NCBI RefSeq assembly: GCF_011058315.1
Contig: NZ_CP049298.1
Location: 1,550,001 to 1,614,000, forward strand
Direction: 5' to 3'
DNA: 64,000 bases
Origin: Chryseobacterium sp. POL2
GTDB lineage: Bacteria; Bacteroidota; Bacteroidia; Flavobacteriales; Weeksellaceae
Shown here: piece by piece, positions 1,109 through 5,252 of the stretch
Position numbering within the stretch: position 1 is the first letter of the stretch
Layout: every line of letters starts with the position of its first letter
Made by a program: the position numbers and the translations under genes
The notes under the pieces: model-generated
Seen by the model: the letters and a program-made list of their open reading frames with translations, nothing else
Told to the model about the DNA's origin: nothing
Databases searched by the model: none

Positions 1109-2143
1109 TTAGTTTTTGTAAAAACCATTAACACCAATACCTCCGTTGATTTTTCTAATTTCTGACCCAATGATTGAGTACACTGTAATTTCGCTTGGCG
1201 AGTTGAAGTCTTTAGCATTCGATGTGAAAATTTTCCCATCAATAACATTAAAACCATACAAAGTCCCATCATTCGATTGTGATGCAGAGAATAAATATTG
1301 CGGGATAACGTCGTTCAACGGAAGCGAATACACTTTGTTAGCTGAAGAAAAATAAGCAACATCATTGGCAATTTCCAAATTGCTAGCATCTGCAATCCCT
1401 TTTAATTTTATTTCTTTAGCAATGCTTGTTGCACCAGCGTTTATTCTATAAATATAAGAATCTACACCATCCGAGGTAATACTGTACACATTATCACCAT
1501 AACCAATTGTTTTTTTGATATCACCATTCGGAACACTAATTGTGGTTTGGAAAGCATTATCCGAAGTTTTGATGATGCTAATTTTGTTACCATAACCAAA
1601 ACTAGCATTTTGGACATAGACTTTATCACCAGCTACAACGACACGCTCTGCAACATCTTCAATATTAATTTTTTTAACAAAACTAAAATCACTTAACTTA
1701 TATACAGCCACATATTTCTCTCCTAAATATGCATCATTCGTGATATAAATATAATCTTTAGAAAAGGCGACATATCTCGGATTATTGATATTTGTCGAAA
1801 TTGTTGTCATTTTTTTGAAAGAATAACGATTAACAACTTCAACTTTATTGGAATTATTGACTACCAAAAAAGCTTTATCATCTTTAACAGCAATTGTCTG
1901 TAAAATATCGCCTAAAACTTGGTTGTCATTATTCAGGGCATAGATATTCTGCGCAACTTGCGACAAATCAGAAGAAATATAAGACACTTCCGCTTGATTT
2001 CTATTATACCCACCTTCTACACTTACCAAAACGCCACCTTCGTAAGCGCCGTTGTCAACGATAACTTCTTGATCATCTTTACAAGCTGTCATAAACAGCA
2101 AACTTGCGGCAAACATGCTCGCTAGCAAACTTCTGATTTTCAT
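1109..2143 (-). CDS. Surface lipoprotein beta-propeller, YncE/DUF5074-like, probable cobalamin-binding BtuG-like partner of BtuB
   Basis: This is a 344-residue lipoprotein: a signal peptide ends in the lipobox FMTAC with the lipidated Cys at residue 21. The next residues are K-D-D, which fits the lipoprotein export signal K-(D/E)2 described in Capnocytophaga, so surface exposure is predicted. The mature part is a series of short beta repeats (AVKDDKAFLVVNNSNKVEVV, YVAFSKDYIYITND and similar) typical of a YncE/DUF5074 seven-bladed propeller, and it ends in GVNGFYKN. The gene starts 11 bases after the stop of the BtuB-like receptor gene and shares its B12 riboswitch. In Bacteroides, BtuG is a surface propeller lipoprotein that caps BtuB and binds B12 very tightly. 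Assigning that role here is inference from fold, location and regulation. Confidence 0.7.
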   Translation of the reverse strand: MKIRSLLASMFAASLLFMTACKDDQEVIVDNGAYEGGVLVSVEGGYNRNQAEVSYISSDLSQVAQNIYALNNDNQVLGDILQTIAVKDDKAFLVVNNSNKVEVVNRYSFKKMTTISTNINNPRYVAFSKDYIYITNDAYLGEKYVAVYKLSDFSFVKKINIEDVAERVVVAGDKVYVQNASFGYGNKISIIKTSDNAFQTTISVPNGDIKKTIGYGDNVYSITSDGVDSYIYRINAGATSIAKEIKLKGIADASNLEIANDVAYFSSANKVYSLPLNDVIPQYLFSASQSNDGTLYGFNVIDGKIFTSNAKDFNSPSEITVYSIIGSEIRKINGGIGVNGFYKN

Positions 2144-2154
2144 AATAACTATTT

Positions 2155-3975
2155 TTAAAAATTAAAATTCATATTAACGGCATAATTGCGCTTCGGCATC
2201 CAATAGCCATAGACTGTTCTGTACACTTCTGATGTCAGATTATTAACTTTAAATCCAAGTTTCAACGATTTCAAAACGGAAATATCCAAACCAAGATTAA
2301 TAACATAAAACGACTCCATCGTGTACATCTTTGACTCATCTGCATCACTGAAAATTTTGGAATTCCAAATAGTTTGCAAATGCAATCCTATCATTTTATA
2401 ACTAAAATCCGCGCCCAAATTAATTTTATGAAAAGGCACGTATGGCAATTGTTTTTTTCGTGCCTGATCTTCCGATTTTGTATAAGCATAAGAGAAAAAA
2501 GTGCGATAACTAAAATCTTCAAATTTCTGCTCGGCGCCCAATTGTGCTTCAATCCCCAAAGATTTCACACGTTCGGTATTTTCTGCCTGAAAAATTCCGT
2601 TTGCACCAGGAATCCAACGTATCATATCTTTGATATCCATAAAATATGGCGTTACACTTGCATGTAAAAATTTCCATTTTAAATTTTGTGAAAACTCAAA
2701 TTGCATCGATGTTTCTGGTTTCAAACTTGGATTTCCTCCAGGTTCCCAATACAAATCATTGAAAGTTGGCGCTCGAAAATTCTTTGATGCACTAATTTTG
2801 ATATTATAAAAATCCGAAACTTTATAATGTCCTGCCGCGGAAAACAAAAACGGACTGCTGACATGTTCTACAAATTCCTTTTTAAGACCAACTTCCCAAT
2901 CAAAATTTTTGATATTATAATTTCTGTACAACAAAGCTGCAGAACCTTGATGGCAAGAAATATTGCTAATTCCAGTTTCAAAACCAAGCGCTTCAATTTT
3001 ACTAACTTCAGCTAAAAAATTGATTTCCGAATCAGAATTAATTTTAAAATTAAAATCGTTTTTAATTAAATATTGTTTGGTTCCGCCGCCAGATTTTGTG
3101 GAAGGGATTTTAGAATTCATAAAATACTGATAATCATCCGTGAGATAGGCCACTTTCACATCATTATTTATTTTCAAGGTTTTCAACTTCCAACCGGCAA
3201 GACTGCGGAAAGTTTGACTCAAATATTTACTTGGCGTGGAAAACTCAGACAACAAAGGATAATTTTGTTCCGCATCAAAAATCTGACTTTGTGAGTAGAT
3301 TTCGTTGTGGTGATCTAGTCGTAGCGCAAAACCGAGGTTAATTCCCGTATTTTTATATTTTGCATTTCTATTGACATAATATTGTTCTTCAACCTCAAAA
3401 TCATTATCACTTTGATTATGATTTACAGAAAACTGAACACTCAATTTATCATTGCTATAATTAGTTTTTAATAATGAATTAAATGTCCCGTAGGAAGCAT
3501 ATTCTGCAAAGATTTGATTTTTAAATCCTTTGTTATATGAAAACAAATTGTTGAGATGTATCGAGCCGCCAATCGCTCCAGAACCATACAAAATACTTCC
3601 GCCACCGTATTTAATCGCAATATTATCATAGCCTAATAGACTTATATTATTAACATCGCCTTGACCTAAAAACTGAGAATTAATATTAATGCCATTCCAG
3701 ACAAAAGCGGTTTGTTGCGCGGTAGTTCCACGAAAAGAAGGCGAAGACACCATTCCGCGCCCATTTTCTTTAATATAAACTGGCGTTTGAAAACTTAAAA
3801 ATTCTGAAAGCGATGTTGCATTCTTGAGGATCTCATCGGATTTCACAATTTGGATTTTGGAAAATTGTTCTGCTTTGGGAAGTTGCTGATCGATAAAAAC
3901 AGTGTCAATAACTGCTTCTTGCGCAAAACTTACTACCGAAAAAAAGAACGAAAAAGAAAAATATAAATGCTTCAT
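2155..3975 (-). CDS. btuB: TonB-dependent outer-membrane receptor, BtuB-like vitamin B12 transporter
   Basis: The product is 606 residues, close to the roughly 600 usual for BtuB. A signal peptide (residues 1-18, ending in FAQ) precedes a plug domain (about 40-150) that includes SPSFRGTTAQQTAFVWNGIN and the YGGGSILYGSGAIGGSI loop common to TonB receptors. A 22-strand barrel follows and ends in the aromatic NFNF of outer-membrane barrels. There is no carboxypeptidase-like N-terminal extension, so it is not a SusC-type receptor. A cobalamin riboswitch directly upstream indicates the substrate: cobalamin or another corrinoid, imported with TonB energy. The first gene of a two-gene operon with the propeller lipoprotein. 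Confidence 0.88.
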   Translation of the reverse strand: MKHLYFSFSFFFSVVSFAQEAVIDTVFIDQQLPKAEQFSKIQIVKSDEILKNATSLSEFLSFQTPVYIKENGRGMVSSPSFRGTTAQQTAFVWNGININSQFLGQGDVNNISLLGYDNIAIKYGGGSILYGSGAIGGSIHLNNLFSYNKGFKNQIFAEYASYGTFNSLLKTNYSNDKLSVQFSVNHNQSDNDFEVEEQYYVNRNAKYKNTGINLGFALRLDHHNEIYSQSQIFDAEQNYPLLSEFSTPSKYLSQTFRSLAGWKLKTLKINNDVKVAYLTDDYQYFMNSKIPSTKSGGGTKQYLIKNDFNFKINSDSEINFLAEVSKIEALGFETGISNISCHQGSAALLYRNYNIKNFDWEVGLKKEFVEHVSSPFLFSAAGHYKVSDFYNIKISASKNFRAPTFNDLYWEPGGNPSLKPETSMQFEFSQNLKWKFLHASVTPYFMDIKDMIRWIPGANGIFQAENTERVKSLGIEAQLGAEQKFEDFSYRTFFSYAYTKSEDQARKKQLPYVPFHKINLGADFSYKMIGLHLQTIWNSKIFSDADESKMYTMESFYVINLGLDISVLKSLKLGFKVNNLTSEVYRTVYGYWMPKRNYAVNMNFNF

Positions 3976-4017
3976 ACCAACCGCTTTTCTCCCGAAAGCC
4001 TTATTATTTTTTGTTAA

Positions 4018-4172
4018 TATTGGCAGGTCTCCTGACTTTCGCAGATGGCATCCCTTCTCGTGTTAACAATGGTTAATGATGACATCTTTTGTTCGCGAAT
4101 TACAGTTGCGGGGACAGTTGAAGACTCACACTTCATTCCCTTTTAATTTCGAAATATGATTTTCGAAAACCA
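4018..4172 (-). ncRNA. Cobalamin (adenosylcobalamin) riboswitch
   Basis: On the minus strand the B12 box reads AGTCAGGAGACCTGCC (plus 4022-4037), an exact fit to the family consensus. Upstream of it is the conserved core with GGGAATGAAG and CTGTCCCCGCAACTGTAA (plus 4101-4140). The 3' end is about 40 bases before the receptor start codon, so B12 binding would shut down transcription or translation of the btuB-like operon. The 5' boundary is estimated from the promoter; only the core elements are certain. Confidence 0.95.
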
Positions 4173-4178
4173 ATAATG

Positions 4179-4210
4179 CAAAAATAAATAAAGTTTTTCT
4201 TTTAAATCAA
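4179..4210 (-). promoter_or_regulatory. Promoter of the B12-uptake operon
   Basis: On the minus strand TATTTTTG (-7 element, plus 4179-4186) is preceded by TTG (plus 4208-4210) with a 21-base spacer. This matches the Bacteroidetes form TTG...TAnnTTTG and would start the transcript at the 5' edge of the riboswitch. Confidence 0.6.
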
Positions 4211-4214
4211 ATGA

Positions 4215-5252
4215 TTATGAAAAATATTTCACATAAAAATCATGAAGCGGTTTTGGAAACGATTTTTGATCGGCTTCATCTTTTGTTAAACTTAAAAAAA
4301 CAAATTCTTTTTTTAAATTTTCAAAATCAGAAAAATCTGGAATATTAATTTTAAATATTGAAATTTCTAAGTTACGATGCGTCAACTTATGCCGAATTAA
4401 TTTTTCGCTTTCAACTTCATGGGGAAAATCACTCAGATCAATATTTTTTGGGAACTCAAACAATTTTTTCCATATATCGGAAGTATCCCGTTGCTTGACC
4501 AAAAATTGATTGTCGTGATGAATAAATTGATATGTCAATGTCAAATTTTCGACTTTCGTTTTCTTCAATTTAACTGGGAATTGTTCGATTTTTCCAACCG
4601 CAAAAGCGCGACAATCGTCCTGCAAAGGACAATCACCACACATAGGATTTTTAGGCTTACATATTGCGGATCCTAGATCCATCATGGCTTGATTGAAACA
4701 ACCAGGATTATCGTCTGGCATAATCAATTCCGCCAACTGAGAAAAATATTGTGATGCTTTAGAATTAGAAATATCAAAATCGTCAGCAAATAGCCGCGAC
4801 AAAACTCTGTAAAAATTACCATCTACTGCAGGGATTTTTTCTTCAAAAGCAATGCTGGCAATTGCTGCAGCCGTATATTTCCCAACGCCTTTTAATTTTA
4901 AAAGCTGAGAATATTGATTGGGAAATTCGGAGTCATAATCATTTATAATTTGTTTTGCAGCTTTGTGAAGATTAAGCGCTCTCGAGTAATAACCTAAGCC
5001 TTTCCAATACAACATAACCTCCTCTTCATTGGCATTTGCAAGGCTTTGCACGTTGGGAAACCGCGCTACAAAATTAATATAATGCTGAAGTCCTTGTTTC
5101 ACTTGCGTCTGTTGAAGGACAATTTCGCTAATCCATATATTATACGGATTTGTATTTTTGCGCCATGGCAAGTCTCTTTTATTAGTATGATACCATATAA
5201 GTAGCTTACTGCCAATATAAAGAAAGTCAGTCTTTTGTTTGTAAGTTTTCAA
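4215..5252 (-). CDS. mutY: A/G-specific adenine DNA glycosylase MutY
   Basis: A base-excision repair enzyme that removes adenine mispaired with 8-oxoguanine. The 345 residues hold a helix-hairpin-helix domain (LKLKGVGKYTAAAIAS, about 118-133). The likely catalytic Glu43 lies in ISEIVLQQTQV and Asp144 in VDGNFYRVLSR. An iron-sulfur cluster motif C-X6-C-X2-C-X5-C is complete at Cys198, 205, 208 and 214. The remaining ~120 residues correspond to the NUDIX-like 8-oxoG-recognition domain. The length is normal for the family. The gene is divergent from the HU gene and only a few dozen bases separate the two starts. Its stop lies next to the promoter of the B12 operon. Confidence 0.96.
   Translation of the reverse strand: MKTYKQKTDFLYIGSKLLIWYHTNKRDLPWRKNTNPYNIWISEIVLQQTQVKQGLQHYINFVARFPNVQSLANANEEEVMLYWKGLGYYSRALNLHKAAKQIINDYDSEFPNQYSQLLKLKGVGKYTAAAIASIAFEEKIPAVDGNFYRVLSRLFADDFDISNSKASQYFSQLAELIMPDDNPGCFNQAMMDLGSAICKPKNPMCGDCPLQDDCRAFAVGKIEQFPVKLKKTKVENLTLTYQFIHHDNQFLVKQRDTSDIWKKLFEFPKNIDLSDFPHEVESEKLIRHKLTHRNLEISIFKINIPDFSDFENLKKEFVFLSLTKDEADQKSFPKPLHDFYVKYFS

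Follow-up and report, generated by a model that had tools for sequence, protein, structure and literature searches.

A cobalamin-riboswitch operon of Chryseobacterium sp. POL2 that very probably encodes a BtuB-BtuG corrinoid uptake system

In Bacteroides thetaiotaomicron, corrinoids are taken up by pairs of a TonB-dependent receptor, BtuB, and a propeller lipoprotein, BtuG, and the mechanism considered below is taken from these pairs (PMC10404256, PMC6143338). The study that defined BtuG in 2018 searched human gut genomes, and the protein has been discussed as a factor in gut competition that can even take B12 from intrinsic factor (PMC6143338). The upper-ligand pocket of BtuG2 is lined by Trp194, Trp272, Tyr316, and Tyr335, the corrin is held by 13 hydrogen bonds, cobinamide is also bound by BtuG2, and the extracellular loop EL8 of Bacteroides BtuB, with its Tyr538, destabilizes B12 held in the BtuG lid (PMC10404256).

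An operon of the same layout is present in the window, the 64,000-nucleotide stretch of Chryseobacterium sp. POL2 DNA analyzed here, and all of its features lie on the minus strand. Its 5' leader holds a full-length cobalamin riboswitch aptamer (RF00174, positions 4005..4189) that scores 100.5 bits (E 5.9e-24), well above the curated gathering score of 31.5. The B12 box within it (AGTCAGGAGACCTGCC, 4022..4037) matches the consensus letters of Rfam (AGCCAGG...) at all positions but one; a sequence-only reading of this DNA had described both the riboswitch core and the box as exact, which is right for the presence of a genuine riboswitch and nearly right for the box. The riboswitch is followed by btuB (2155..3975), encoding a 606-aa B12 receptor-like protein with a signal peptide, a plug, and a β-barrel, and, after a gap of 11 nt, by btuG (1109..2143), encoding a 344-aa surface lipoprotein of the seven-bladed-propeller type; the coordinates and the description of the pair in that reading were correct. 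No B12 link is evident for the MutY-type gene (4215-5252) upstream of the riboswitch. The operon comprises these two genes without btuH, btuJ, btuL, or btuFCD; the partner genes for BtuCDF lie outside it, and the genome encodes one FecCD permease with an ATPase elsewhere, of uncertain substrate. The vitamin is used by the cell, whose genome codes for MetH, methylmalonyl-CoA mutase, and a mutase of the IcmF type. A search of the whole genome found just two cobalamin riboswitches, this one included.

The receptor contains the barrel (PF00593, 1.9e-32) and plug (PF07715, 2.6e-14) domains. Of the NCBIfam models, TIGR01779 for the B12 receptor fits it best (6.1e-34), but its 117.5 bits stay below the equivalog cut-off of 599.7, and on its sequence the protein is classified as a relative of the Bacteroidota BtuB proteins rather than as a TIGR01779 member. 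In a sequence search of the PDB, its nearest solved proteins are BtuB3 (8p98_A, 2.1e-36) and then BtuB2 (3.6e-32) of B. thetaiotaomicron, whereas E. coli BtuB is a far weaker match (2.2e-9); a profile of 22 relatives matches BtuB2 (8bmx_C) at 5e-61. The AF2 model has a barrel of moderate confidence and a poor plug (pLDDT <50, residues 61-135), and its first 16 Foldseek matches are all BtuB. A putative Ton box, IDTVFI (residues 23-28, 3892..3909), may serve the coupling to TonB; its I23-D24-T25 are invariant in the 22-row alignment. The segment W454...F462...N466 (2578..2616) aligns without gaps with EL8 of Bacteroides BtuB, placing F462 at Tyr538 of BtuB3, so that the aromatic character of the position appears to be kept; most relatives have Trp there, as in BtuB1.

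The lipoprotein is assigned to BtuG by sequence and by structure. A phmmer search of the PDB matched only structures of the BtuG1/2/3 type (best 8bmx_D, 3.9e-14), and the family profile matches BtuG3 at 3.5e-68, with a YVTN propeller next at 4.8e-29. The AF2 model is a propeller (pLDDT 92.7) whose top 16 Foldseek matches are all BtuG, with BtuG2, BtuG3, and BtuG1 first (1e-22 to 1e-19); in the VIA structural comparison, BtuG structures reach Z 34.6-35.5 over 299-305 residues and the next propeller Z 28.8. These score gaps, in the sequence profile as well as in structural Z, rule out a generic YncE/YVTN propeller. The propeller named in the sequence-only reading is thus borne out by the PDB matches and by the model, and the fold prediction that it had called for gave BtuG structures as the best matches. 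Its DUF5074 repeats did not hold up: at the gathering score, Pfam detects neither DUF5074 (PF16819) nor any other family in the window BtuG, though relatives do match. The export signal that it had read as K-D-D behind the lipidated Cys is present, the signal peptide ending in LFMTAC-KDD with Cys21 followed by KDD (2072..2083). Among related BtuGs, residue +4 (Cys being +1) is Asp or Glu in 49 of 52.

Identity to BtuG2 is 22%, and the comparison of the pockets covers the four named upper-ligand aromatics. By alignment, three of the four positions are still aromatic in the window BtuG: F182 (1598..1600) corresponds to Trp194, Y296 (1256..1258) to Tyr316, and F313 (1205..1207) to Tyr335, the latter two being conserved as Tyr in 26 of 30 sequences and as Phe or Tyr in 29 of 30, respectively. 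The fourth, Trp272, aligns with Asp252, and the position is non-aromatic in nearly all relatives; due to this replacement, the upper-ligand pocket of the window BtuG differs from that of BtuG2.

The whole unit is conserved well beyond the window. A homolog occurs in 38 of 59 relatives, and a btuB sequence lies beside btuG in 28 of the 30 loci retrieved. In the 80 closest loci from named genomes, which as best matches mostly from one genus group do not represent independent events, btuB lies directly upstream of btuG in every case and a cobalamin riboswitch is present in every case (76 by the B12 box, the remaining four by Rfam). Most of these hosts are Chryseobacterium, with Soonwooa, Elizabethkingia, Kaistella, Epilithonimonas, Cloacibacterium, and others; the nearest operon is that of Soonwooa buanensis (63% identity for BtuG, 72% for BtuB). 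Chance is excluded by the E-values together with the retention of the riboswitch-btuB-btuG unit in all 80 homologous loci. The riboswitch is also present in 13 of 13 distant loci sampled, and this comparison of other B12-riboswitch operons, proposed in the sequence-only reading, strongly supports the assignment to BtuB-BtuG. Environmental Weeksellaceae make up most of the closest named genomes, which fits the suggestion made there of a flavobacterial genome of probably non-gut origin. The rarity which that reading implied is not found, since in a sample across Bacteroidota, 208 of 395 genomes contain a homolog (match at 1e-8 or better), and these represent 114 of the 171 genera.

The operon is therefore interpreted, with high confidence, as a B12-repressed BtuB-BtuG unit for corrinoid uptake. 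One alternative is that the lipoprotein captures B12 independently of BtuB, a role that BtuK1 may have, instead of forming a lid on the receptor. BtuK1, a B12-binding propeller lipoprotein of B. thetaiotaomicron, is indeed close behind in structure (Z 28.7), but the BtuG structures are ahead of it there as well as in sequence (3.5e-68 vs 2.5e-16), and the invariable presence of btuB as the direct neighbor of the btuG homologs (80/80) is as known for BtuG; such an independent role is considered very unlikely.

It is equally improbable that the pair imports a different compound of the cobalt or tetrapyrrole type, or is confined to incomplete corrinoids, with B12 acting merely as the regulatory signal. 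The replacement of Trp272, the scores of the receptor below the equivalog cut-offs of the B12-receptor models, and the known binding of cobinamide by BtuG2 would be compatible with such a substrate. Against it, both proteins match B12 proteins above every other family, and regulation by cobalamin is kept in all 80 loci.

On the preferred reading, corrinoid uptake by BtuB-BtuG, the operon would work as follows, with B12 binding by the window BtuG, its surface exposure, its complex with BtuB, and the transfer of the ligand all modeled on B. thetaiotaomicron. At low intracellular cobalamin, the riboswitch would leave the mRNA on; BtuB would be inserted into the outer membrane, and BtuG would be lipidated, flipped to the cell surface via its C-K-D-D export signal, and placed as a lid over BtuB. 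Corrinoids would be captured in the central cavity of the propeller, closure of the lid would press loop EL8 of BtuB against the ligand and hand it to the receptor, and TonB would then drive it into the periplasm.

In many relatives, BtuG homologs of about 414-460 aa carry an ordinary signal peptide and a C-terminal T9SS type A sorting domain in place of a lipid anchor. All 20 collected match TIGR04183 and PF18962, 18 match DUF5074, and 19 adjoin btuB, the remaining one lying at a contig end; SprA, the T9SS translocon, is encoded in 19 of the 20 host genomes, and the exception is a genome that is 76% complete. These propellers lie behind a riboswitch and btuB (L161:4935-6194 (+), L163:4749-6026 (-), L144-L153, L155-L160, and L164). 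L161 has no BtuG other than the T9SS form behind riboswitch and btuB, whereas L163 has two BtuGs in tandem, one a lipoprotein and one of the T9SS form. In a tree of 60 propellers, a quick tree with support by SH-aLRT only, six changes of anchor type are required, and well-supported branches force at least three of these. Judging from this tree, the anchor of BtuG has switched at least three times. No BtuG borne by the T9SS was found in the literature searched, and its display by this route looks new; such forms could show whether an N-terminal lipid hinge is required at all in the pedal-bin model.

The second riboswitch of the POL2 genome (L003:9894-10078, corresponding to G000:C1:887893-888077, minus strand, 96.4 bits) lies directly upstream of a gene (L003:8685-9797, minus strand) for a 370-aa leucine-rich-repeat (LRR) protein that has a signal peptide as well as a T9SS sorting domain; SprA is present in the genome. 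A profile of close relatives finds the subfamily in four genera of the family and in eight of its 320 genomes, five of the eight belonging to one genus. It is linked to B12 in all eight: seven genes stand directly behind RF00174, and the eighth is the last in an array of riboswitch, btuB, btuG, lipoprotein gene, and DUF5074/T9SS gene. The link is limited to this close subfamily, as no riboswitch lies near the LRR proteins of greater distance (29-33% identity) in L237-L240. The second riboswitch is unlikely to be left over from a metE leader that was lost, because seven other genomes retain a riboswitch with the LRR gene; no synteny with the metE loci retrieved was found either. The control by a cobalamin riboswitch in all eight genomes makes the protein a candidate corrinoid-scavenging surface protein, and judged by its regulation and location alone, it would most naturally serve to capture corrinoids. 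No LRR protein of this type linked to B12 was found in the literature searched, and a B12-controlled LRR surface protein looks new.

Beyond the window operon, the analysis brought two surprises, the T9SS-anchored BtuG and the LRR family, and the latter offers a specific candidate for a B12-binding protein of a new class. The chances seem about even that corrinoid capture at the surface of Bacteroidota extends beyond lipoproteins in this way, with a BtuG lid that repeatedly swaps its lipid anchor for a T9SS domain but keeps its pairing with BtuB, and with the T9SS LRR protein as a new kind of scavenger.

Other cobalamin-riboswitch loci were encountered in the relatives. A second, larger operon of Weeksellaceae (L197, L200, L205, L210, L235) comprises btuB (~670-690 aa), btuG (~378 aa), a lipoprotein-like gene of 310-420 aa without a Pfam match, and a gene for a DUF5074 protein (464-847 aa) that in most cases bears a T9SS domain. 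In L202 (5582-6679, minus strand), a 366-aa protein in which the T9SS domain is the only one known stands directly behind a cobalamin riboswitch and is followed by cobT. In Chryseobacterium and relatives, a riboswitch, with weak scores in some loci, immediately precedes the gene for a YciA-like acyl-CoA thioesterase (L198:6422-6802 (-), L214:6373-6753 (-), and L262-L268). Riboswitches also precede prpB-prpC-prpD, the B12-independent propionate route, and metE (L207:1098-4988 (+); L196, L208, L209, L213, L215), both of which are alternatives to B12-dependent enzymes.

Among the described systems, E. coli BtuB is likewise a TonB-dependent B12 receptor from an organism with a cobalamin riboswitch; it differs in the weaker sequence match to the window receptor and in having no BtuG. 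THC0290_1776 of Flavobacterium psychrophilum is a flavobacterial TonB-dependent transporter under a cobalamin riboswitch, described as an unknown transporter with no BtuG partner reported (PMC9723704). BtuB1-BtuG1 of B. thetaiotaomicron (PDB 8blw) shares the families and the arrangement of the window operon; BtuB1 has the Trp at the EL8 position common to most Chryseobacterium relatives, and BtuG1 contains a fused BtuH domain, which is absent from the window BtuG. Shared with BtuB2-BtuG2 and BtuB3-BtuG3 (PDB 8bmx, 8p97/8p98) are a cobalamin riboswitch, adjacent btuB and btuG, a surface-lipoprotein signal, a seven-bladed-propeller fold, and, as far as the alignments indicate, aromatics at the positions of Trp194, Tyr316, and Tyr335 and probably in EL8. 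The window system differs from them in a BtuG of only ~22% identity in which Trp272 is replaced, in a two-gene operon without the btuH, btuJ, btuL, and btuFCD genes, and in a host related to free-living Weeksellaceae. As the unit is conserved and homologs occur in more than half of the Bacteroidota genomes sampled, BtuBG is no gut speciality; its occurrence in Weeksellaceae that are for the most part environmental, and in roughly half of the phylum sample, suggests that BtuG probably did not originate with life in the gut, and the protein is worth considering wherever Bacteroidota compete for corrinoids. The window operon is a well-supported addition, from outside the gut, to the known BtuB-BtuG kind.
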